Positions 1,429 to 21,335 of a stretch of 24,807 bases of DNA are shown here, piece by piece (position 1 is the stretch's first letter; each line of letters starts with the position of its first letter). The DNA comes from a virus. The stretch spans positions 1 through 24,807 of IMG/VR virus record IMGVR_UViG_3300035698_005274; one strand, 5' to 3'. The notes under the pieces are model-generated. The model ran no database searches, was not told where the DNA came from, and saw only the letters and a program-made list of their open reading frames with translations. Made by a program: the position numbers and the translations under genes.

Positions 1429-1517
1429 TGGTGGGAAATGATGGAATTGAACCACTCGTCGCCCTCTGAGATTTTTTATGACCAGAGTTTTACAGACTCC
1501 TACCCAGAACATCTCCC
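1429..1517 (-). tRNA. tRNA-Tyr (anticodon GTA)
   Basis: Acceptor GGGAGAT pairs with ATTTCCC. The anticodon loop is CTGTAAA. A long variable arm follows, as expected for bacterial tRNA-Tyr. CCA is encoded. It begins eight bases after the stop of the GIY-YIG gene at 1525. Confidence 0.88.
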
Positions 1518-2450: not shown

Positions 2451-2616
2451 TAAATAAGTTATGCTATAAACTCCCCACTTATCTGCAGTTCGAGGATCTC
2501 ATGCTAGTGTATCTTATCCTTATATGGGAGCTACCCATGATGGAAGTCGAGAACTAATTTAATGTTGTTTGACTCTATTACGAAAGAAACTGAACAACAC
2601 TAGCATAACTTATTTA
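2451..2616 (-). ncRNA. Structured RNA closed by a 16-bp helix, between a gene and tRNA-Gln
   Basis: A perfect 16-bp inverted repeat (TAAATAAGTTATGCTA at 2451-2466, complement at 2601-2616) encloses about 135 nt. The 5' strand of this helix on the minus strand, AUGCUAGUGU, is also perfectly complementary for 10 bases to ACACUAGCAU inside the domain, so the two helices are mutually exclusive. Other possible stems include GUUGUU/AACAAC. The stop codon of the upstream gene is the first three bases of the helix, and tRNA-Gln begins about ten bases after it. It may help processing of the tRNA or be a stable RNA; its function is unknown. Confidence 0.6.
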
Positions 2617-3311: not shown

Positions 3312-3389
3312 TGGTACGGGATAAGAGATTCGAACTCTTAATTGTAGGAGGCTTAAACCCCTTGTGTATTCCAGTTCCACCAATCCCGT
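3312..3389 (-). tRNA. tRNA-Leu (anticodon TAA), short variable loop
   Basis: Acceptor ACGGGAT pairs perfectly with ATCCCGT. The D-arm GTG/CAC with a large loop is leucine-like. Anticodon stem AGGGG/CTCCT surrounds loop TTTAAGC. The variable region is only ACAATT, whereas bacterial tRNA-Leu normally has a long arm. A shifted reading of the loop would give UUA (a UAA reader), but its stem would contain two A-C mismatches. Confidence 0.8.
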
Positions 3390-3401
3390 AAATTTATATT
3401 T

Positions 3402-3540
3402 TGTAGTCCTATCAGGGAATCGAACCCCAACTTTTAGGTAGCCACACCTAAAGTCTGTAGACCTAATGGTTTAAAGTTGTCTATGTAATGTTAACATGTA
3501 TTAACCACACTTATTTCTTATCACCACCTACAGATAGAAC
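3402..3540 (-). ncRNA. tRNA-like RNA, family B copy 1 (about 139 nt)
   Basis: GTTCTAT at the 5' end pairs with ATAGGAC at the 3' end over seven base pairs. A T-arm TGGGG-TTCGATT-CCCTG directly precedes the 3' strand, exactly as in a tRNA. Between them lie about 100 nt in place of the D and anticodon arms: a GTTAA/TTAAC hairpin, TAGAC/GTCTA interleaved with AACTTT/AAAGTT (a possible pseudoknot), and TTTAGGT/ACCTAAA just before the T-arm. The 3' end is ACA, not CCA. It sits in the tRNA array with 7- and 12-nt spacers, so it should be excised like a tRNA. A related element occurs at 10447-10595. It could be a tmRNA-like molecule or a tRNA with an insertion; no tag frame was recognised. Confidence 0.6.
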
Positions 3541-3547
3541 ATATATT

Positions 3548-3623
3548 TGGTAGGAATGAAGGGATTCGAACCCTTAGATATGGAGGTCTAAGCTCCACGT
3601 GTATGCCGTTCCACCACATTCCT
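3548..3623 (-). tRNA. tRNA-Leu (anticodon TAG), short variable loop
   Basis: Acceptor AGGAATG pairs with CATTCCT, D-stem GTG/CAC, anticodon stem TGGAG/CTCCA around CTTAGAC, T-arm AAGGG/CCCTT, encoded CCA. The variable loop is TATCT, again short for a leucine tRNA. Anticodon UAG reads CUA; it is not an amber suppressor. Confidence 0.87.
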
Positions 3624-5077: not shown

Positions 5078-6160
5078 TTATAATATTAACTCACATGAAG
5101 GACCAGAACAAGCTACAAGCTGACTGCTAGTTGTAGTATCTGATTTTTCATATTCTGATAACTTATCCCAGTTTATATTAGGAAAAGATTTTATTTGTAT
5201 ATTATATTCTTCTTCTGTGATTTCTTCTAATGGAGCATTGTCATATATATGATCTTCTTTAGGAAAAAATGATAATCCACCAACTAAATCTCAGTTTGCT
5301 CATATCCAATCAGCAACTTGGAAAAACTCATCATCTGTATAATATATAGTTTGTGAAGGGTTTCCATCACACCAAAATTCTTTATATATTTTTCATAAAT
5401 TAAGTTGTGATAATGCATCCATATCATTTTGTATAACTGAATGTTCAGGTGATTTCATATAAAATGAAAATATAACTTTATCAACTTCATCTACATATGG
5501 AAGACCTTCGTTTATTAATAAAAGTGTCAATGGGTCTGTTTTAGCTTGTCTTACACGTCTAATAAAATATTTTGAATATCTTGGATGTATACCAGACGAA
5601 GTTCCTGTTAAAATGGAAACTGTGCCGCTAGGTTTTATTAAAGTTGTTTGTCCAGCTTCTTTTATACCAAGTAATTTAGCATATTTTTTATTAATTGCTT
5701 TTGCATATGCTCTTAAATGATCTAATATACTTTCAAGATTAATAAATTTTTCTTTACCAGAAAATTTATGAAATTCATCTTTATTGGCTGTATTAGAAAA
5801 AATCTTATTATCCATTATACCTGTTAATGATACACCAAGTAAAGCTTCATCTTCTGCATTATTTTGTCATACTTTTCTAAGGTATCTAAAATTTGTTAAT
5901 GTAGCTTGAAATGTACCTATAATTACAGCCATTTCTATTTTATCTTCAATACTTTTAAGAGTATCGTCAGGTCGTATCATTACCTCTGTCAGATTACATA
6001 AACCACCTGTATCTCTAAGTATAGCTTCACCACAATTGTGAACTAACATATTATTAGCAAAGAAGTTGTGGTTGCTCTCTGTTGTTATGTCATACACATC
6101 TTGGTTCTCTTCAACTCATATTCGTTTAACTCTGCTTTTGATAACTTTACACTCTTCCAT
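5078..6160 (-). CDS. nrdJ: Class II ribonucleotide reductase, C-terminal half fused to C-intein
   Basis: The product has 360 residues with TGA as Trp. Residues 1-42 are a C-intein ending NHNFFANNMLVHN. Residue 43 is Cys, followed by GEAILRDTGGLCNLTEV; by family comparison this Cys is the thiyl-radical cysteine of adenosylcobalamin-dependent ribonucleoside triphosphate reductase. Further on come ALLGVSLTGIMD, KPSGTVSILTGTSSGIHPRY and a tail with ACSGPSC, the usual paired cysteines that reduce the active site. Five TGA codons are in frame. One directly precedes Q-N-N-A-E-D-E-A-L-L-G-V, where the family has Trp. The start ATG (6158-6160) has a strong SD, AAGGGAG, eight bases upstream, which supports an independent gene. 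Activity requires trans-splicing to the product of 6229-7485. Confidence 0.88.
6035..6160 (-). other. C-terminal split intein (IntC), 42 residues
   Basis: The sequence MEECKVIKSRVKRIW then VEENQDVYDITTES then NHNFFANNMLVHN contains intein motifs F and G with the terminal His-Asn and a +1 Cys. Its length and its start with Met-Glu match known natural C-inteins. One TGA (Trp 15) is in frame. Confidence 0.85.
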
Positions 6161-6228
6161 TCACTTAACTCCCTTGTATATGTTTGTTCACTAAATGGTT
6201 CTATATCATCTATGACCATTATCTTATT

Positions 6229-6528
6229 TTATTGATAACATACAACTTCATCATTACATGTCAATTTTCCTGCTTCAATATACCCTCTATTTGATGTATA
6301 CACCTTGTGGTCTGGTGTTAATTTTAACATAGACCCATCTTCAAGTTCAATCTTTATAACTAACACCATTTCTCTTGTCTTACCAGCAAAGGTAATTTTT
6401 TCTTCTTCTATTCTACCACTGGCTGGGTTATATGTCAACACTTTATAATCATCTTTATCATTGTTCACAATATCATCAATCCTAATATCACCTTTGTCTG
6501 TCTTAACCAAAGTGTCTGCTGTTACACA
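6229..6528 (-). other. N-terminal split intein (IntN), 99 residues
   Basis: It starts with Cys1 (CVTADTLVKTDKGD, motif A) and contains LTPDHKVYT (motif B with T-x-x-H), then RGYIEAGKL and ends DEVVCYQ-TAA. That end point is close to where natural split N-inteins of phage reductases end. There is no homing endonuclease domain and no TGA codon. Confidence 0.87.
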
Positions 6529-7485
6529 TGGATTAAGTAAATAAGATCCGTCATGTTCTCTACCACAAAAATCAGCTTTTTTTCTTAATGATTCTTGATT
6601 AACAATTCCTCTTTCACCTGATTTACTTTTATGTAATGATCTTCATTCTTTAGAAAATGAATCAAGATCTGGTTTTTCAGTATACATAACACTATTATTT
6701 GCTAATGCTCTTTGTCCTGCTGATTGTCACCATTGACCTGTTTTAGCTCTTCTCATTCTATCATCTGTTAAATTAGAAAAGGATATACCAGCCGAGCGTC
6801 TTACTCCCCCAACTACAACTGTATCAAGTATATAACAAACAATATCATGACATTCCACAGAATTAAGTTTTCTACCTTTTGCCCCTGTTATAATTCTAAC
6901 CACATTTTTAAATAACCTGTTTAATGGTTCAGGTCCACTAGCTCTTCCACCAAAAGTTTTCAGTCTTGAACCAGCAGGTCTTATTTTATCCATATTTCAT
7001 TTAGGAATAGTTCCTTGATACAATAAAGATATAATTTCTTTTAATGAAGATGATCAACCTATTTTTGAATCTCGTACAACAATAGTTGAATCAGACTCAA
7101 AAAATTCTTCTGCTACTTCTGGTAATTTGTTAATGTATTGTCTTTCAACTGAGAATCCTGTACCACATCCGTTCAAAGCAAGAAAAAATATCTCATCAAA
7201 ACATCTTATGTGAGTTATTGATATTGCTGAACAATTATATCCTGCTATTTCATCTCTTGTTAATGCTTTTCCTGCAGTCATTAAAGCTCTCATTGAAGGC
7301 ATTGTTTTCATACTAACAATATTATCATACATCTTATTAAATACGCTATTATATGTATCTGGAAATCTATCTCTTCAAAAGTCTACATATCTTTGACAGG
7401 TTTCTTCTCACGTTTCTCTTCTATTTTTTTCTGGCAATCATCTTGCATATTTTGATGTAGCTATATAACGTTGAATTGAATCCAT
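6229..7485 (-). CDS. nrdJ: Class II ribonucleotide reductase, N-terminal half fused to N-intein
   Basis: The product has 418 residues with TGA as Trp. The extein (residues 1-319) shows YARWLPEKNRRETWEE, MPSMRALMTAG, AGYNCSA, CGTGFSVERQYINKLPEV, IGWSSSLKEIISLLYQG and RPAGSRLKTFGGRASGPEPL. All are typical of the monomeric B12-dependent triphosphate reductase that makes dNTPs. Seven TGA codons are in frame, several at conserved Trp positions. The extein ends Y-L-L-N-P, just before the catalytic Cys, and runs into a 99-residue N-intein that stops at TAA (6229-6231). The spliced enzyme would be about 637 residues, somewhat shorter than well-known members. The gene starts three bases after the gene at 7489 with SD AAAGGAC. 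Confidence 0.9.
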
Positions 7486-9190: not shown

Positions 9191-9347
9191 GTAAAAAGTG
9201 TGTTTGTTTTGCAAGATCTGTATTTACGGCTTTCGTCCCTATGCTGGCAGCCACTTTTATCGGGGGGTCGAACCCTGCCGACAATTAGTCTTAGACCGGC
9301 TATCCGGTTACTTTCTTCATCTCTTTCGAGGTAGTACAAACACACTT
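9191..9347 (-). ncRNA. Structured RNA, family A copy 2
   Basis: A perfect 12-bp helix (AAGTGTGTTTGT at 9196-9207, complement at 9336-9347) closes the domain. Inside, in the same order as at 1136-1290, are a CUC-GAAA-GAG hairpin, GAAGAAAGUAACC, a strong ACCGG/CCGGU hairpin, UCUAAGACUAAUU, a long UUGUCGG/CCGAUAA hairpin, GGCU/AGCC and ACAGAUCUUGCAA. Helices are kept while their sequences differ (ACC/GGU versus ACCGG/CCGGU; CUGAU/AUCAG versus UUGUCGG/CCGAUAA), which is compensatory change. Five U follow the closing helix, and a consensus promoter precedes it. Local GC content is higher than in the surroundings. Confidence 0.75.
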
Positions 9348-10294: not shown

Positions 10295-10367
10295 TTGTAA
10301 TGATAGGTATACCCATCACTATACTTGACTATTAAATGGGAGTGCGTATGTCTCATTTAATTTTGTG

Positions 10368-10441
10368 CGAAGATGAAGGGGATCGAACCCTCTACCTCTA
10401 GGTTGACAACCTAGCGCTCTAACCTGATGAGCTACATCTCC
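10368..10441 (-). tRNA. tRNA-Asp (anticodon GTC)
   Basis: Acceptor GGAGATG pairs with CATCTTC, anticodon stem CTAGG/CCTAG around TTGTCAA, T-arm, and G73 as expected for Asp. CCA is not encoded (CAC follows G73). Confidence 0.9.
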
Positions 10442-10446
10442 AAATT

Positions 10447-10595
10447 TGTGTGCCGCTTCAGGGAGTTGAACCCTATGATCCGTCGATCTAAAACAGTATA
10501 AAAAATTACCCTTATAGGAACCTAAACTAATTACCACTAGTAAATAAATCTACATTTAGTTAATTTATGCTGTTAAAGTACCACCACTTGCGACA
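10447..10595 (-). ncRNA. tRNA-like RNA, family B copy 2 (about 145 nt)
   Basis: On the minus strand GTCGC near the 5' end pairs with GCGGC at the 3' end, and a T-arm TAGGG-TTCAACT-CCCTG directly precedes the 3' strand. About 100 nt replace the D and anticodon arms. They include AACTAA/TTAGTT, AACAG/CTGTT and a GATC-GACG-GATC hairpin just before the T-arm, where copy 1 also has a hairpin. Both copies share a G-G-T-G-G-T motif shortly after the acceptor strand. The 5' end is four to five bases after the stop of the gene at 10600 and the 3' end is a few bases from tRNA-Asp. The 3' end lacks CCA. Confidence 0.5.
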
Positions 10596-12101: not shown

Positions 12102-13931
12102 TTATTTTATATCTTCTAATAATTTTTTATATGTGATAATTGGAACACCAAACCCTCTTGCTTTAGTTGCTTTGCTACTCCCTGAATTAACATCATTAGT
12201 TACAAGAAAATCTACATTTTTACTGATACCTTTTACAGTACAGCCAGCATCTTCAAGTAATCCTACTAGTTCAGCTCTTTTCATTGGTGCTTTTCCTGTC
12301 AATGTAACAGTGTTTCCATAAAAATCATGAACCATTTCAATCTCCTTTTTAGTTTCTTTTTTCCATTTCATACCATGTGTTAGCATCATATTGTAGATGT
12401 CATATCCTCTATCTAATCCTTTGAGGATTTTGTCACTTGTAATTTTACCAATTCCGGGAAGGAAAGAAAAATCACCAGTTTCCCAAATTTTATCAAAACT
12501 CATGTGCTTAAGTATCAATTTTGATGATGTGTTACCAAGTCCTGATATACCAAGTCCTGCTAAAAATTTTGCTGGATCCATCACAAGTTTTGATTTCAAT
12601 TCATTTACAATAGTATTAGCTTTCTTTTCACCAAACCCATCTTTTTTCATAATATCTTCAACTGTAAGATTGTATAGTATATCCATATCAGAAACACCAA
12701 GATTGATTAATGTGGTTTTTGATATACCCATTACACCAATTGTTTTAAGAAAATGTTCTAAAGATTTGTAACTCTGTACAGAACACATAGGATTTATACA
12801 TACCAAATCAACACCTTTAGGTGTTAAAACGTCTCCACAAGATTCACAGTAATCTGGTGCAACGAAATCTTTTCCAGTATCAGAATATACATCAACTATA
12901 TAAGGAATAACTTCACCTGATTTGACTACGGTTATTTTAGTACCAATTCCTATATTGTTATCAGAAATATATTTATAGTTATGTGCTGTAACTTTTGATA
13001 TAGTAGAACCACCAATTTCAATAGGATCAATTAATAGAACTGGAATAGCTCTTCCTTTTCTTGAAGTATCCCATTTACATTTAACAACTGTAGTTTCAAT
13101 TGCTTCTTGATTAACCTTAAAAGCAACCTTATGTTCAGGTCTTTTAACATTTTCTCTTTTACTTATGTTTTTTGCTAAAACTAATCCATCAATTTCAAAA
13201 CCCTTGTTATTGTACTGTTCTTTTATTTCTTTAAGAGTATCAGTTAAAATTGTTTCTATATCATCTTCACAGCAAAAATTAAATGTTTTAAAGTCAATTG
13301 TTGGCACTTGAATACCATCTCTTAAAAATATTAATCTACCTGATTCAGTTTCTAAATCTGAATTAATGTGCTCATAAAATAATACTTTAAGATTGGCATG
13401 ATATTGGCTTTCAGCATCATTCAAGATGCCTGCTACTGCAGCTGTCTTATGTTTATAATCTGAACCTTGTGGTAAAGATTCAAGAATAACTTCACCTCTT
13501 ATCCACTCATTGCCTTGAGATTTAATAGGTTTAATAAATTTTCTGGCAATATTAGTAATATTCTGTCCATATTCACCATCACCTCTTCTAAAAGCTGATG
13601 CTACAATACCATTTGAAAAATTAACAAGTATTGAATTACCATCTAGTTTAGGAGTAACTACAGTAAAGTCGTTTTGTTTTTGTATCCATCTAACGGCTGA
13701 ACCCATTTTCTCATCATCTTTTTTCAATTTGGTTTTCTTCAAACTACCCAAAATAAAAGGAAGTTTAACTTTTTCTCTATCATCTACAGGAGCACCAACA
13801 GTTTTAAAATATGGATCATCAGGATTTAATTTAAATTCCTTATCCCTATAATCATCATAATGTCTGTCAGATGTAATAGGAAATCCATTTCTATAAGTCT
13901 TATCATATAATTTTAATTGTTCAATAGACAT
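12102..13931 (-). CDS. ligA: NAD+-dependent DNA ligase
   Basis: This 609-residue protein seals nicks in duplex DNA using NAD+. The nucleotidyl-lysine motif is T-P-K-L-D-G-N-S (Lys about 95). R-R-G-D-G-E-Y-G-Q-N-I-T-N-I-A and G-F-E-I-D-G-L-V-L-A-K follow, then V-A-F-K-V (motif V), an OB domain, a zinc site C-E-S-C-G then C-I-N-P-M-C (about 365-386), helix-hairpin-helix repeats (G-D-F-S-F-L-P-G-I-G) and a C-terminal BRCT domain from about 535 (G-N-T-V-T-L-T-G-K-A-P). The N-terminal Ia domain is short compared with cellular LigA. All Trp codons are TGG and none is TGA. SD GAGGATT precedes the ATG, and a promoter overlaps the end of the previous gene. Confidence 0.95.
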   Translation of the reverse strand: MSIEQLKLYDKTYRNGFPITSDRHYDDYRDKEFKLNPDDPYFKTVGAPVDDREKVKLPFILGSLKKTKLKKDDEKMGSAVRWIQKQNDFTVVTPKLDGNSILVNFSNGIVASAFRRGDGEYGQNITNIARKFIKPIKSQGNEWIRGEVILESLPQGSDYKHKTAAVAGILNDAESQYHANLKVLFYEHINSDLETESGRLIFLRDGIQVPTIDFKTFNFCCEDDIETILTDTLKEIKEQYNNKGFEIDGLVLAKNISKRENVKRPEHKVAFKVNQEAIETTVVKCKWDTSRKGRAIPVLLIDPIEIGGSTISKVTAHNYKYISDNNIGIGTKITVVKSGEVIPYIVDVYSDTGKDFVAPDYCESCGDVLTPKGVDLVCINPMCSVQSYKSLEHFLKTIGVMGISKTTLINLGVSDMDILYNLTVEDIMKKDGFGEKKANTIVNELKSKLVMDPAKFLAGLGISGLGNTSSKLILKHMSFDKIWETGDFSFLPGIGKITSDKILKGLDRGYDIYNMMLTHGMKWKKETKKEIEMVHDFYGNTVTLTGKAPMKRAELVGLLEDAGCTVKGISKNVDFLVTNDVNSGSSKATKARGFGVPIITYKKLLEDIK

Positions 13932-20402: not shown

Positions 20403-21335
20403 ATGATTTTAACAGGTATAAAACCAACGGGTACATTTCATATAGGTAACTTTATAAGTACAATTAAACCTATATTAAATAAAGATGCTATCATTTTAAT
20501 TGCAGATCAACATGCATTGATAAGTAATCCTAAAAATTTAAAAGAAAATATAATAGATTTATATAGAATATTTTTATCATTTGGATTTAAAAACATTGTA
20601 AGACAATCAGAATTACCAGAAATATCAGAATTGAACTGGATTTTATCGTGTTGTACTGAAATTGGACATCTTAACAGATCTCATGCATATAAATCAACTA
20701 AGGATTTTAATGTACTTAATAATTTTAATGAAAATAAAGGAATTACTGCAGGATTGTTTAATTATCCTACTCTAATGGCGGCGGATAATATAATATTTGA
20801 TACTGAATATGTTAGCATAGGGCAAGATCAAGTATCACATATAGAAATAGCAAAATTCATTGCAAATAAATTTAATCACATATATAATACAGATATATTA
20901 AAAGTTCCTAAACCAGTTATTTCTAATGATATTATTCTAGGATATGATGGAAGAAAAATGAGTAAAAGTTACAATAATGTAATTCCACTATTTTGTTCTG
21001 AAAAGAAATTGAAGAAACATATATTCAGTATGAAGACTAATTCTAAAAATATTGGCGAACCAAAATTTATGAATGAAAGTCCTGTATGTGATTTGTTTAA
21101 TTCAATTTCATCAGATGAGCAAAAATGTGTTATGAAAAATTTGATGGAAGATGGTATTGGATGGGGTGATATAAAACTAATTACATTTGATCTTCTTAAT
21201 GGAATGGTTAAAAATGAAAGAGATATCTATAACAATTCATTTAATGGTAAGCCCACTTATGTTGAAACTTATAACCGTGATACAATATTTAATGTGAAAA
21301 AGAAAATAGAAAAGATTAAGCACTTAGTGTACTAA
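20403..21335 (+). CDS. trpS: Tryptophanyl-tRNA synthetase
   Basis: This 310-residue class I synthetase charges tRNA-Trp. The HIGH-type motif is P-T-G-T-F-H-I-G-N (residues 8-16). G-L-F-N-Y-P-T-L-M-A-A-D and G-Q-D-Q-V-S-H-I-E (140-148) match the tryptophan and ATP site of TrpRS, and K-M-S-K-S is at 185-189. Length is close to cellular TrpRS (about 330). SD ACAGGAGAAAAT. It is the only clear plus-strand gene here, with its own promoter and terminator. Its Trp codons are TGG and none is TGA, so it can be made before recoding takes effect. With UGA read as Trp through the genome, its likely job is to charge a UGA-reading tRNA-Trp; that link is inference. Confidence 0.96.
   Translation: MILTGIKPTGTFHIGNFISTIKPILNKDAIILIADQHALISNPKNLKENIIDLYRIFLSFGFKNIVRQSELPEISELNWILSCCTEIGHLNRSHAYKSTKDFNVLNNFNENKGITAGLFNYPTLMAADNIIFDTEYVSIGQDQVSHIEIAKFIANKFNHIYNTDILKVPKPVISNDIILGYDGRKMSKSYNNVIPLFCSEKKLKKHIFSMKTNSKNIGEPKFMNESPVCDLFNSISSDEQKCVMKNLMEDGIGWGDIKLITFDLLNGMVKNERDIYNNSFNGKPTYVETYNRDTIFNVKKKIEKIKHLVY

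Follow-up and report, generated by a model that had tools for sequence, protein, structure and literature searches.

Candidate tRNA-ended, non-decoding RNAs in the tRNA array of a virus fragment and their resemblance to T4 RNAC

Long tRNA-like RNAs in phage tRNA arrays

RNAC of phage T4 (rnaC, also species 1 RNA) is a stable RNA that has been known for decades without a known function. The rnaC gene is 139 nt long and lies within the T4 tRNA region, and its RNA carries a U-ACA tail and a T-arm that is directly preceded by a hairpin. According to a review and an RNA-seq study, RNAC is transcribed and its function is unknown (PMC3014915, PMC9697503). We aligned ten sequences, namely T4 RNAC and relatives from other T4-like phages (Tevenvirinae), and found that 90.3% of cells are paired, with compensatory change in 27 of 54 pairs, while slid and shuffled controls came nowhere near these values. 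The covarying plan consists of an acceptor, a long arm, a hairpin preceding the T-arm (pre-T hairpin) and the T-arm. Moreover, the loops of the central and pre-T hairpins form a kissing loop of six pairs (UUGACG/CGUCAA), which is paired in all ten sequences and compensated at two positions.

When other phages were searched for tRNAs, KVP40, GAP32, Atu_ph07 and the huge phage LR745206 gave matches of excessive length. Some matches of this kind are annotated as tRNA-Pseudo (KVP40 and Serratia phage BF) or tRNA-OTHER (Vibrio phage 1.081.O), and in Vibrio phages K567 and 1.081.O the long tRNA-like genes lie near an RNA-ligase-like gene. An alignment of fourteen members from KVP40, K567, 1.081.O, GAP32 and BF revealed a family with an acceptor, a D-arm, a three-pair stem, an inserted 7-bp hairpin, an invariant C.GCA motif and a T-arm, in which 98.1% of cells are paired and compensatory change is seen in 23 of 26 pairs. 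The corresponding covariance model scores members at 70-120 bits and recovered four members outside its training set at 70-82 bits. As the KVP40 "pseudo" tRNAs are constrained by covariation, the label does not imply decay, and pseudo-tRNA annotations in large phages can hide conserved RNAs. The existence of a covarying, anticodon-less, tRNA-ended class in KVP40- and GAP32-type phages further indicates that phage arrays do keep such RNAs. No paper treating them as a class was found in full-text literature searches.

Two candidate tRNA-ended RNAs in the window

The window, that is, the whole stretch of DNA analyzed here, is an IMG/VR virus fragment of 24.8 kb in which ARAGORN identifies 13 tRNA genes; no close phage relative was found in the collections searched. 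Two loci within the array, referred to as B1 and B2, have the ends of a tRNA enclosing a long middle. Their features and neighbours are as follows.

3312..3389, - strand: tRNA-Leu(UAA), downstream neighbour of B1 (ARAGORN)
3402..3540, - strand: B1, tRNA-ended RNA of 139 nt including a UACA tail, with T-arm, 7-bp acceptor and tRNA-like spacing
3406..3412, - strand: B1 acceptor, 3' strand AUAGGAC, followed by the U-ACA tail at 3405-3402
3413..3429, - strand: B1 T-arm, UGGGGUUCGAUUCCCUG (stem UGGGG/CCCUG, loop UUCGAUU)
3433..3452, - strand: B1 pre-T hairpin, UUUAGGUG/UACCUAAA, 8 bp, -6.9 kcal/mol
3534..3540, - strand: B1 acceptor, 5' strand GUUCUAU, 7/7 pairs with 3406-3412, one of them G-U
3548..3623, - strand: tRNA-Leu(UAG), upstream neighbour of B1 (ARAGORN)
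10367..10441, - strand: tRNA-Asp(GUC), downstream neighbour of B2 (ARAGORN)
10447..10595, - strand: B2, second tRNA-ended RNA of about 149 nt, with T-arm, weak acceptor and a cruciform minimum free energy (MFE) fold
10452..10458, - strand: B2 acceptor, 3' strand AAGCGGC, five pairs and two A-A mismatches by direct reading
10459..10475, - strand: B2 T-arm, UAGGGUUCAACUCCCUG, as good as that of B1
10576..10589, - strand: B2 D-arm-like hairpin, AAGUGGUGGUACUU, from the MFE structure

B1 ends in a perfect T-arm and in an acceptor of 7 bp, which lie 135 nt apart. No T-arm of this strength occurs elsewhere in the window once the called tRNAs and B1/B2 are set aside, shuffled windows contain a mean of 0.03 T-arms of B1 quality, and a T-arm with a 7-bp acceptor 100-160 nt upstream occurred in none of 200 shuffled windows. 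With only 12 nt to tRNA-Leu(UAA) and 7 nt to tRNA-Leu(UAG), B1 fills a tRNA slot between two tRNA-Leu genes. Thus, the tRNA-like ends and spacing proposed in the initial annotation hold for B1. In B2, which lies 5 nt from tRNA-Asp, the T-arm is good but the acceptor is weak, with only GUCGC/GCGGC paired. The annotated GGUGGU motif after the acceptor is indeed common to both loci and resembles a tRNA D-loop; its reading as a T-box motif was dropped, as its position is the one expected of a D-loop. Both also lack an encoded CCA (UACA in B1, ACACA in B2), a feature that is not distinctive, because tRNA-Asp and tRNA-Met of the same window lack it likewise.

The middles are a different matter. With the ends fixed, folding of the middle did not exceed that of shuffled controls in either B1 (z -0.72) or B2 (z -0.28), compared with z -4.76 for the middle of T4 RNAC. 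The predicted hairpin directly before the B1 T-arm is present, but it was equalled in 56 of 1000 shuffles, and no supported partner was found for its loop, so that the suggested pseudoknot was not borne out. The MFE fold of B2 is a cruciform with its D-arm-like hairpin and a long stem resembling an anticodon arm, with a z of only -1.34. Nor could B2 be upheld as a second copy of B1, as their middles align no better than shuffled sequences (z -0.4, equalled by 192 of 300 shuffles). Altogether, support is good for the ends and lacking for the middle, given the absence of excess folding, the frequency of the B1 pre-T hairpin among shuffles and the lack of mutual similarity.

Neither locus is called as a tRNA by ARAGORN at default settings, and neither passes the RF00005 gathering cut-off. 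The description as an RNA of about 140 nt with tRNA ends that is not a tRNA is therefore supported for B1, while for B2 it is plausible only. Distant blastn searches with B1 and B2 against phages gave T-arm-sized or chance matches only, 17-18-base patterns from both had coincidental matches lacking a tRNA-like context in viral contigs, and scans for relatives through the neighbouring proteins (ribonucleotide reductase, tryptophanyl-tRNA synthetase and ligase) returned none with a comparable tRNA array. A lack of homologues had been named beforehand as an argument against an unusual RNA, and sequence homologs are indeed lacking; this is weak evidence, because records close to the window may be missing from the searched sets.

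Several other elements were observed in the window. A tRNA-Tyr(GUA) at 1433-1517 (- strand) was missed by ARAGORN and has in Rfam only a sub-threshold tRNA-Sec match. The segments 1140-1287 and 9196-9346 (both - strand) are RNA-like, each about 150 nt in length and closed by a long stem, and their alignment (z 10.4) shows them to be homologous; neither an Rfam match nor a real homolog in viral contigs was found for them. A pattern derived from the RNA labelled family A in the window gave a single chance match among viral contigs, in a coding-dense contig. Two further segments, 2215-2364 and 2458-2612 (both - strand), flank tRNA-Gln and are foldable and apparently non-coding; their sequences are unrelated to each other and to the pair above, and similar closing-stem sequences occupy tRNA slots in LR745206 and LR756502.

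Regarding the coding content, TGA is a sense codon at least in the ribonucleotide reductase (5078-7485, - strand), with 12 in-frame TGA across its two parts, while the ORFs for DNA ligase (12102-13931, - strand) and tryptophanyl-tRNA synthetase (20403-21335, + strand) contain none. An in-frame stop separates the two parts of the reductase, which is B12-dependent and carries an intein at 6040-6540 (- strand), with halves of the splicing domain in both ORFs. The tRNA-Trp of the window has the anticodon CCA and a U11-A24 pair, the latter as in the Hirsh suppressor.

Possible origin and role of B1 and B2

For B1, and less surely for B2, we propose tRNA-ended, non-decoding RNAs that would be matured by tRNA processing and be analogous to RNAC, a reading in which confidence and doubt are about equally balanced. 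On this reading, each locus has the acceptor/T-arm minihelix of a tRNA at its ends, and a long non-tRNA middle takes the place of the D-arm and anticodon arm. The RNAs would be transcribed along with the tRNA array, excised at the acceptor by RNase P and the host 3' trimming and CCA machinery, and persist as stable RNAs unable to decode, their task presumably residing in the middle and not in the tRNA shell. As a guess at the role, each could be a putative trans-acting RNA engaging tRNA-binding host factors or tRNA-cutting defences. In favour of this proposal are T-arms far beyond chance, the 7-bp acceptor of B1, the tight spacing and the failure to obtain a tRNA by excision (see below), together with the match of B1 in length and layout to T4 RNAC, which is transcribed and whose plan is kept by covariation in ten phages. 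It is weakened by the absence of homologs, low scores in the RNAC and KVP40-type models, unstructured and mutually unrelated middles, the defective B2 acceptor and the lack of an RNAC-like kissing loop.

The main rival, which we regard as possible though doubtful, is that these are relic tRNA genes whose middles were replaced or expanded through insertion and drift, leaving the T-arm and acceptor behind. Such an origin would fit the random appearance of the middles and their lack of similarity to each other, the two mismatches in the B2 acceptor and the pseudo-tRNA annotation of the KVP40 look-alikes, and it stays in contention for both loci because the middles carry no selection signal in a single sequence and no homolog was found. 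Nevertheless, B1 has kept a full 7-bp acceptor, a perfect T-arm and intact spacers of 12 and 7 nt, and the KVP40 "pseudo" tRNAs are themselves under covariation constraint. Decay is more likely for B2, which may be of the same kind as B1 or a relic.

It is improbable that B1 and B2 are true, very diverged homologs of RNAC or of the KVP40-type family. B1 shares the RNAC plan and size and aligns end to end to both covariance models, but the scores lie under those of ordinary tRNAs in each. With the RNAC model, B1 reached 7.0 bits (E 3.1) and ordinary tRNAs up to 16.7 bits, so that its score is not that of an RNAC homolog; with the KVP40-type model, B1 and B2 reached 10.1 and 10.4 bits against 21.6-44.6 for the tRNAs of the window, and they are thus not members. 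Furthermore, the UUGACG/CGUCAA kissing loop and the C.GCA motif following the inserted hairpin were not found; manual reading of B1 and B2 found no complementary loop of the RNAC type.

Equally improbable are intron-bearing tRNAs, an option also raised in the initial annotation; here, removal of an intervening sequence of 50-75 nt would yield a normal tRNA. At 90% of its threshold, ARAGORN does report B1 as a tRNA-Pro(AGG) with a 39-nt intron. Yet when all possible intervals were excised, it accepted two products for B1 and none for B2, compared with 0-146 for shuffled middles, so that a canonical cloverleaf with a 7-nt anticodon loop was restored no more often than in these controls. In addition, the anticodon calls of similar RNAs in KVP40 and GAP32 disagree among relatives. 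Lastly, kinship with tmRNA, whether the tag is missing or simply unrecognised, is very improbable despite the long insert between tRNA-like ends. No tmRNA was found in B1 or B2 down to 40% of the ARAGORN threshold or in Rfam up to E 10, neither has a tmRNA core with a tag reading frame, and in both the long arm is separated from the T-arm by a hairpin.

Comparison with known systems

A broader proposal, which we consider unlikely, is that B1 and B2 belong to a wide, overlooked guild of phage RNAs. Such RNAs would be processed and stabilised by means of tRNA ends, while a middle that evolves fast would act against defences that cut tRNAs or host enzymes that bind them, with T4 RNAC and the KVP40 "pseudo-tRNAs" as two conserved branches. 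If unrelated phages independently retain tRNA-ended, non-decoding RNAs in their arrays, the tRNA shell would be a reused maturation device, and the role of RNAC would become testable through comparison.

Among known systems, tmRNA resembles B1/B2 in having tRNA ends that enclose a long insert, whereas B1/B2 have no tag frame and no tmRNA core and possess a hairpin before the T-arm. Over-long tRNA-like genes also stand in the arrays of the uncultured huge phages LR745206 (365524-365647) and LR756502 (388572-388674), as B1/B2 do in theirs, although these matches have a canonical D-arm and no sequence link to B1/B2 emerged. The KVP40/GAP32/BF-type RNAs have in common with B1/B2 the tRNA ends, an expanded middle, an unusable anticodon and a place in phage tRNA arrays, but they are 113-129 nt long and possess a canonical D-arm, an inserted hairpin of 7 bp and the C.GCA motif.

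With RNAC, neither locus has detectable similarity in sequence or by covariance model, and the RNAC middle is strongly folded around a covarying kissing loop, unlike those of B1 and B2. B2 follows the RNAC plan in part only, given its weak acceptor and a D-arm-like hairpin that RNAC does not have. B1, in contrast, follows it closely in size and layout: like the RNAC family, whose members measure 139-142 nt, it occupies a tRNA slot in the array without an anticodon, and both present an acceptor, a long central arm, a hairpin abutting the T-arm, the T-arm itself and a U-ACA end without CCA, with a middle of 104 nt in B1 and 105 nt in T4 RNAC.
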